Below, in pieces: positions 26,047 to 62,952 of a stretch of DNA of 64,000 nt (position 1 is the first letter of the stretch; each line of letters begins with the position of its first letter). The notes below the pieces were generated by a model. The model saw only the letters and a list, made by a program, of their open reading frames with translations, searched no databases and was not told the origin of the DNA. Origin of the DNA: Paragemmobacter amnigenus. Lineage in GTDB: Bacteria > Pseudomonadota > Alphaproteobacteria > Rhodobacterales > Rhodobacteraceae. Where the stretch lies: positions 1-64,000 of the forward strand of contig NZ_JAAATX020000010.1 of assembly GCF_009908265.2 (NCBI RefSeq), given 5' to 3'. Position numbers and translations under genes: made by a program.

Positions 26047-26688
26047 ATGACCGACATCCGCGTCAAGATCTGCGGTCTGCGGACCGAAGCCGATGTTGCC
26101 GCCGTCGCGGCGGCGGGCGCGGCCTATGCGGGCTTCGTCTTCTTCGCCAAATCCCCCCGCAACCTGACCATCGCACAGGCCGCCACGCTGGCCCTTGCTG
26201 CCCCGCCCGGTCTGGCCAAGGTCGCGCTGGTGGTCGATGCCGATGACGACACGCTGGACGCCATCGTGGGTGGCGTCCCTCTGGACATGCTGCAACTTCA
26301 CGGCCACGAATCCCCCGACCGCGTGGCCGAAATCCGCGCCCGCTACGGCCTGCCGGTGATGAAGGCGGTAGGTGTGGCCGACGAAGGCGACCTTGCCGCG
26401 CTTTTCGACTATTCCACCGTGGCGGACCAGATCCTGATCGACGCCAAACCGCCCAAGGGCGCGGCGCTGCCGGGTGGCAACGGGCTGTCCTTCGACTGGC
26501 GTCTGGTGGCGCAACGCCGCTGGCTGCGCCCGTGGATGCTGGCCGGCGGCCTGACGCCGGACAACGTGGCCGAGGCCATCCGCCTGACCAATGCCCGTCA
26601 GGTCGACGTCTCCTCGGGCGTCGAAAGCGCGCCGGGGGTCAAGGACGCCGCGCGGATCACAGCCTTCGTGAAGGCCGCACAGGCCTAG
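26047..26688 (+). CDS. trpF: Phosphoribosylanthranilate isomerase
   Basis: TIM-barrel isomerase of tryptophan synthesis that converts N-(5-phosphoribosyl)anthranilate to CdRP. It has 213 residues. Motifs: [12 protein letters not shown] with the catalytic Cys, [15 protein letters not shown], the phosphate-binding [14 protein letters not shown] and [15 protein letters not shown]. Its TAG stop is the first position of a palindrome array that separates it from trpB. Confidence 0.96.
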
Positions 26689-26796
26689 CGATTTCCGACG
26701 CAGAAATCGCGCCGGAATTTGACGCAAATTCCGCGCCCCCCTGCCGGAACCCGAAATCTGCGCCAGATTTCGGGGCGGAGTTTGCGTCAAACTCCG
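26688..26796. repeat. Palindrome array A between trpF and trpB
   Basis: Four short hairpins in a row. First, GCGATTTC/GAAATCGC (26688-26710, loop CGACGCA). Second, CGGAATTTG/CAAATTCCG (26713-26733, loop ACG). After a 16-nt spacer, CCCGAAATCTG/CAGATTTCGGG (26750-26774, loop CGC). Fourth, CGGAGTTTG/CAAACTCCG (26776-26796, loop CGT). It begins within the trpF stop codon. Arrays B (62716), C (62907) and D (56306) share the arm types. Confidence 0.85.
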
Positions 26797-26856
26797 TCTT
26801 TCCCACGGCGGACAACGGCGCTACATCGGGACAGCAAGACAAGGGGAGTGGCGGAC

Positions 26857-28089
<1,233 letters not shown>

Positions 28090-56305: not shown

Positions 56306-56392
56306 GATTTTTCTGCGAAAAATCCCGCCCCGCCCCACCGTCCCACCAGACCCCGCCCGAAACGGAGCGCCCGATTTTTCGCAGAAAAATCG
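56306..56392. repeat. Palindrome pair D between DUF2834 and lysA
   Basis: GATTTTTC/GAAAAATC with loop TGC (56306-56324) and CGATTTTTC/GAAAAATCG with loop GCA (56372-56392). The second is the reverse complement of the first, so they face each other across a 47-nt spacer. The second abuts the DUF2834 stop codon. Confidence 0.75.
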
Positions 56393-62715: not shown

Positions 62716-62828
62716 GCGGAATTAGACGCAAATTTCGCGCCGATTTCTGACGCAGAAATCGGACAGCCCTCCACGGGAGCCGCGGAATTTGCGTCAAATT
62801 CCGCCGCGATTTCTGCGTCAGAAATCGC
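62716..62828. repeat. Palindrome array B downstream of phaB
   Basis: Four hairpins. GCGGAATTAG/CAAATTTCGC (62716-62738, loop ACG, one mismatch). CCGATTTCTG/CAGAAATCGG (62740-62762, loop ACG). A 19-nt spacer. GCGGAATTTG/CAAATTCCGC (62782-62804, loop CGT). GCGATTTCTG/CAGAAATCGC (62806-62828, loop CGT). It begins 12 nt after the phaB stop and is followed by the phaB terminator. Confidence 0.88.
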
Positions 62829-62906: not shown

Positions 62907-62952
62907 GCAAAAATCTTCGAAGATTTTTGCAAATTCCTTCGAAGGAATTTGC
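62907..62952. repeat. Palindrome pair C upstream of the DMT gene
   Basis: Two perfect 24-nt palindromes overlapping by 2 nt: half-sites GCAAAAATCTTC (62907-62918 and its complement to 62930) and GCAAATTCCTTC (62929-62940 and its complement to 62952). Both are centred on TTCGAA. They end 8 nt before the ATG. Confidence 0.88.

Follow-up and report, generated by a model that had tools for sequence, protein, structure and literature searches.

A four-hairpin repeat at stop codons in Paragemmobacter and other Rhodobacteraceae

The palindromes between trpF and the gene in the trpB position of Paragemmobacter amnigenus (26688–26797 of the window, the whole 64,000-nt stretch analyzed here) form one copy of a repeated element of about 110 nt, which consists of four hairpins in the order H1, H2, spacer, H3, H4 and is generally positioned at stop codons. 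The reading that we favor, at roughly even probability, is that the element is a bidirectional module of mRNA 3′-end hairpins. Its stop-codon position, strand symmetry, bias toward convergent genes and maintained hairpins all argue for an RNA function at the ends of transcripts read from either side, and suggest that the repeat marks or protects mRNA ends on either side. The array, its flanking genes and a second full copy in the window are as follows:

26047–26688, + strand, trpF, PRA isomerase (Pfam), upstream of the array
26688–26710, hairpin H1, arm type GATTTC/GAAATC, loop ACG, one C·A mismatch
26713–26733, hairpin H2, arms GGAATTTG/CAAATTCC, loop ACG
26734–26749, spacer of 16 nt between H2 and H3
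26750–26774, hairpin H3, arms CGAAATCTG/CAGATTTCG, loop CGC
26776–26796, hairpin H4, arms GGAGTTTG/CAAACTCC, loop CGT, followed by TCTTTCCC
26857–28089, + strand, gene in the trpB position, PALP family (Pfam), ATG 60 nt past H4
62716–62828, unstranded, second full four-hairpin copy, 11 nt past the stop codon of a short-chain dehydrogenase gene

The four hairpins, two arm types, paired loops (ACG and ACG, then CGC and CGT) and 16-nt spacer that an earlier note on this DNA had described are borne out at 26688–26796, and the array does begin inside the trpF stop codon, as that note had stated: the first G of H1 is the last base of the TAG, an overlap of one base. The stop-codon position proved to hold generally and is no local accident. 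The element has AT-rich stem cores in a window of 67% GC, and its spacer has the commonest length (20 of 98 elements). Both window copies fold with z-scores of −7.1 to −9.8 on the two strands. In their predicted minimum-energy fold, one local hairpin is accompanied by a long H2:H4 (or H1:H3) duplex that encloses the intervening hairpin; four separate hairpins are thus not the lowest-energy RNA form in this model, which corrects the four-hairpin picture.

Across the 4.14-Mb genome, the GGARTTTG-type arm pattern occurs at 31 places and the GATTTC type at 24, and reversed control patterns at none, so the array is more than chance. The 30 pattern loci inspected contain one composite element (H1 H2 spacer H3 H4) rather than two separate repeats, with hairpins of about 23 nt that have a GC foot and an AT-rich middle. 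A covariance model was built from 18 arrays, each selected by one exact arm pattern. It gave 91 both-strand matches at E up to 1 in this genome, read as about 45 places, and matched the element in all 19 genomes of the genus, with 2 to 110 both-strand matches each; these copy numbers are lower bounds, as the best 26 to 150 candidates were scored per genome. Chance or local drift, which the earlier note had kept in view, is ruled out by the genome-wide copies, the absence of reversed controls and the paired stem changes described below. A known RNA family is likewise ruled out by the absence of Rfam matches at gathering score: the window had no family match, and five further loci gave four matches with E up to 0.5, far below gathering scores.

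Loops were compared over 120 binned places (possible double counts) drawn from 233 rows (the 150 best of 174 and another 83), and stems in the 98 of these elements that have four recognisable hairpins, some sites being present from several species. The loops of H1 and H2 read mostly ACG, GCG or ACA and those of H3 and H4 mostly CGT, CGC or TGT, with four-base versions in some; when the 12 commonest loops of each hairpin are considered, a single one is of the opposite type (TGT in H2). With NCG loops in H1 and H2 and CGN loops in H3 and H4, the element reads alike on both strands. The two-type alternation seen at trpF–trpB also holds, along with the loop order: neighboring stems differ, with H1 equal to H2 in 1 of the 98 elements (8.5 expected) and H3 equal to H4 in none (11.2). 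Equality is also rare for H2–H3 (5, 16.5 expected) and H1–H4 (4, 14.9), and reaches 22 for H1–H3 (12.8 expected) and 9 for H2–H4 (7.7). The mean identities of H1–H3 and H2–H4, 5.16 and 5.11 of 7 positions, compare with 4.53 and 4.36 from the four avoidances alone. This genome by itself (37 elements) goes in the same direction, with 0, 0, 2 and 1 equal neighboring and outer pairs versus 2.4, 2.9, 5.9 and 3.5 expected, each pair being marginal (p 0.03–0.10). Stems thus tend to follow a direct order, A B / A B, and the loops run as an inverted repeat, a combination that simple duplication or inversion of one half cannot give. The direct order also permits the H2–H4 or H1–H3 pairing of the lowest-energy fold. 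The simplest reason for avoiding A B / B A is that the element would then be a single inverted repeat, nearly 50 bp long, with the spacer at its center. Unlike neighboring stems would keep the halves from joining into one long, perfect palindrome that repair nucleases or RNase III could attack. PMC3733652 finds no obvious explanation for the preference for heterodimers among REPs and suggests protection from degradation for such unlike units.

Gene context was analyzed with gene ends from a codon-usage gene caller, not from annotation, for 42 elements of this genome (four weak matches, L226–L229, included and the place C6:83727 left out). Of these, 18 lie between convergent, 21 between tandem and 3 between divergent genes, and the 116 spacers of at least 50 nt without an element comprise 14 convergent, 65 tandem and 37 divergent ones, an enrichment for convergent pairs (18/42 vs 14/116, p = 7e-5). 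Gene 3′ ends fall between −12 and +15 nt of the element edge in 45 of 56 cases, counting those within 600 nt (one 3′ end 718 nt off was left out), and starts come that close in 2 of 27. The gap is −1 to +5 nt for 24 of the 56 ends; in 11 of the genes the stop codon is a TGA lying in the tip of H1 or H4, and in 6 it is a TAG whose G belongs to the element as well. The same placement was found in named genomes, with 63 of 79 gene ends and 2 of 35 starts at the edge (62 elements from 174 both-strand matches, weaker or truncated ones left out; 5 of the 62 have no called gene on one side), and in six other genera, with 39 of 54 ends and 0 of 24 starts, one start overlapping by 14 nt. At several convergent pairs the element fills the gap between the two stop codons (gaps 0/−1, 1/4 and −11/−11), and tandem copies hug the upstream stop codon rather than the middle of the spacer. 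The suggestion that the array lies inside a likely operon is doubtful, as 19 of the 21 tandem copies in this genome leave at least 46 nt to the next start codon. At one site shared by several loci, L124 has a TAA belonging to the gene itself just ahead of the element, and in L194 and L145 the TGA at the tip of H1 closes the reading frame; the element is a spare stop codon there.

If the element is a bidirectional 3′-end module, transcription from either side would place stable hairpins directly behind a stop codon. In the RNA, these hairpins would block 3′-to-5′ exonucleases that trim back from Rho-dependent ends, and the element may in addition be a terminator with little or no U-tract. Acting as an exonuclease block or terminator, one element would serve two converging genes. 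Exonuclease protection after Rho-dependent termination fits the absence of a U-tract outside the genus, and weak termination would fit the short pyrimidine and T tract within it. Past H4 in the gene sense, 38 tandem rows from this and related species have T fractions of 0.29, 0.50 and 0.45 at positions 1–3 and no A, compared with 0.18 for T and 0.17 for A in the control; this T enrichment is absent in genomes G052, G082 and G009. The fixed loop letters suggest, from sequence, that a loop-reading protein may take part. Counted against the 3′-end module are this absence, the 3 divergent copies among 42 and the long H2:H4 or H1:H3 duplex at equilibrium.

Upstream of trpB, five of 19 genomes carry the element. 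In the same region, 9 of the 14 congeners without the element, and none of the five with it, have a GC-rich hairpin (6 bp or more) with TTTCCCC after it, a contrast that further weakens the operon-internal reading. Only this site suggests a replacement: the element as a general substitute for terminators is unsupported by the tandem-spacer counts, in which other terminator-like hairpins occur in 4 of 45 spacers with the element and 33 of 177 without (p = 0.18, not significant). In the trpB upstream regions L165, L167, L168 and L169, a different large inverted repeat (GAGGATATTT ... AAATATCCTC) lies beside the GC-rich hairpin and looks like another repeat family of these genomes.

Stem pairing is kept while the letters change, which the earlier note had proposed as a check, both among arrays and at shared sites. 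Standard pairs fill 97.9% of the pair cells of the 18 arrays, and 27 of 40 pairs show two-sided change; two-sided-change cells number 134, where shuffles give 43.6 and slid controls no more than 45. The pairing in this set flatters one hairpin per array because the arrays were chosen by one exactly matching arm, and one of five pair measures, further pair types, shows no excess (35 vs 34.2 in shuffles). Within the 98 elements, 3747 of 3918 non-gap pair cells are Watson–Crick (95.6%), 75 are G·T or A·C and 96 other. The strongest test that structure outlasts letters is the comparison of 20 sites common to at least two species, a sample that leans toward shared elements because the named loci were retrieved by the element pattern. 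Its 45 comparisons, which are not independent, contain 145 paired two-sided changes, 101 one-sided changes and 14 two-sided changes without both versions paired, at a median spacer identity of 57% versus 48% for unrelated spacers. A preference for G·T in RNA sense was looked for among the element stems and gave no signal: G·T is not favored over A·C in the gene sense (19 vs 13, p = 0.38), and on the arbitrary + strand the counts are 26 and 49. The gene-sense balance counts against an RNA-only role in tandem copies, which would predict a G·T preference.

The main alternative, clearly less probable than the 3′-end module, is a selfish or formerly mobile palindromic repeat without host function, spread by an enzyme that prefers gene ends, its pairing kept not by selection but by DNA arm-copying, that is, template switching or gene conversion between copies. 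It would account for the G·T balance and for site turnover: when 18 elements of genomes G100 and G103 were compared with the 42 of this genome, 8 shared both flanks (5 of 10 for G100, 3 of 8 for G103), one shared one flank and 9 shared none, in a comparison that is less biased but drawn from best-scoring loci. Whole-stem swaps and the L205 element, which by eye reads as inverted relative to L136 at a shared site, look like conversion, and two hairpins (L122, L152, L080) or one (L150) occupy sites where a relative has four. Against this reading stand the 95.6% Watson–Crick stems beside spacers that at shared sites are not far above the unrelated level, and a loop orientation that is rarely if ever flipped. 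Moreover, stop-codon placement across genera requires an insertion preference, and no enzyme was found for it: RAYT (Y1 transposase, PF01797) is above the Pfam cut-off in none of the 19 genus genomes, with one weak sub-threshold match in G105, and the PF01797 control was detected in 5 of 14 named genomes. A RAYT-driven REPIN is accordingly unsupported for the genus. Among the compared loci, no clean pair of filled and empty sites was found in which a target-site duplication, as expected of a MITE, would be visible. Some element sites are old, with flanks 71–94% identical between the pairs that have the element in common. At L076 3415–4114 (Gemmobacter straminiformis), an element is followed by five tandem units with a 110-nt period, some of them degenerate.

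A site that acts at the DNA level, by cruciform extrusion or by binding a nucleoid protein or topoisomerase between converging genes, is unlikely. Escherichia coli BIMEs bind gyrase and IHF. The convergent enrichment, the strand-symmetric anatomy, the few G·T pairs and the loop and tip letters, which are conserved within the genus, are all consistent with such a site, but a protein that binds double strands needs no arm pairing, nothing at the DNA level clearly explains why elements should lie only a few bases from stop codons, and tandem copies would have no cause to keep to the upstream stop codon instead of the spacer middle. Least probable of the explanations weighed is a translation-level element, in which ribosomes that terminate at the stop codon would be held up by a hairpin beginning there, with less protein made; it could be combined with the 3′-end module and draws on the 24 of 56 short gaps and on a precedent in E. 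coli, where, according to PMC12306157, many REPs lie close behind stop codons and those within 15 nt are reported to stall ribosomes, but it leaves the four hairpins, the far half and the convergent bias unexplained, and 11 of 56 genes end inside H1 or H4.

Outside this genome, the exact arm pattern was found in 87 stretches of named genomes, and the 80 listed are Rhodobacterales records apart from one, a Lachnospiraceae MAG whose match looks like chance. These records include Tabrizicola as well as Gemmobacter straminiformis, Rhodobacter kunshanensis and Rhodobacter ruber, three names that are now placed under Paragemmobacter. A model R1 matched 11 of 99 other sampled genomes of the family, at loci that carry two or four hairpins with other loops. 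A second model, R2, built from 11 such loci of five other genera and two loci of this genome, matches 18 of 118 genomes of other family genera, 5 of these 18 being sources of its training loci, and none of 141 further genomes of the class, which belong almost entirely to other families. Among 40 loci of six other genera, G052 and G009 typically have NCG NCG CGN CGN loops, a pattern less evident in G018, G002 and G050; neighboring stems differ, and loop–loop covariation, judged by eye, is not strict. The genera have in common the overall plan, AT-rich cores in the stems and a position at stop codons, and the tip letters are specific to each genus. A broader form of the 3′-end reading, which we put forward tentatively and hold slightly less probable than the selfish repeat, is that these are family-wide two-way gene-end modules of Rhodobacteraceae. 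A protein specific to each genus would read their loops and set the mRNA ends of either strand, and selection against one long palindrome would maintain their stem alternation. The elements listed for G100 are all on contig C1, one of four, and may be confined to the main chromosome. A plasmid-borne repeat was also considered, and the copy at 62.7 kb had no match in 72,556 plasmid records.

The element works like REP/BIME sequences in being made of short palindromes in many copies, with alternating orientation and near stop codons, but differs from them in its four hairpins, conserved loops, variable stems and lack of a RAYT above cut-off in the 19 genomes. In addition, no constant GTAG-type tetranucleotide precedes the first hairpin (56 flanks, by eye). 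CGTC-tagged REPs are mostly alphaproteobacterial, have no dedicated transposase known and form mainly head-to-head dimers, often of two different units (PMC3733652), all of which recalls the present element. They carry an unpaired CGTC at one end of an 8–9 bp stem and a CCA-like tail (PMC3733652, section 6), whereas here CGTC overlaps the H3/H4 loop, stems are modelled as 10 bp and no constant tail is seen by eye. Judged by the features tested, the element is outside both the RAYT/GTAG and the CGTC REP families. A distant kinship with the latter is possible, since CGTC families are reported in all alphaproteobacterial orders (PMC3733652); the main text of that paper mentions none of the seven Rhodobacterales names that were looked for.

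Two further systems resemble the element in part. PMC8269248 describes stem-loops without a U-tract that end transcripts in a GC-rich genome; these U-lacking (I-shaped) terminators, or stem-loop-protected 3′ ends, are alike in having a transcript-end stem-loop without a clear U-tract, the transcript role being a proposal here, but are a class of 3′ ends with GC stem-loops, in contrast to the AT-rich stem cores, conserved loops and multi-copy array of the element. The AT-rich stem-loops of low-GC Firmicutes, as presented in PMC1590033, are also near stop codons and are possible bidirectional terminators near convergent genes, but are bordered by A and T runs and lack the two-plus-two hairpins with inverted loops. 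No description of the repeat was found in the literature searched, mostly open papers and in part only sections of them (among them PMC3733652, section 6, PMC1590033, PMC12306157, PMC8632094, PMC8269248 and PMC2817692).

If the element is a 3′-end module, then in high-GC Alphaproteobacteria a single repeat family would shape dozens of transcript ends in each genome. The stem and loop variants that occur naturally at shared sites could be used to test which properties a bacterial 3′ hairpin has to retain, and the repeat gives measured support for the avoidance of equal neighboring stems. Two further hairpin pairs lie in the window:

56306–56392, unstranded, hairpins that share a stem core and have inverted loops (TGC and GCA), 47 nt apart, the second adjoining the stop codon of a minus-strand DUF2834 gene
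62907–62952, unstranded, adjacent perfect hairpins whose AT-rich stems differ and whose loops are of TTCG type, close to the second full copy and just ahead of an EamA transporter gene

The former is possibly a related form or a member of another subfamily, and the latter possibly a two-hairpin relative with other loops that follows the same plan of two different stems.
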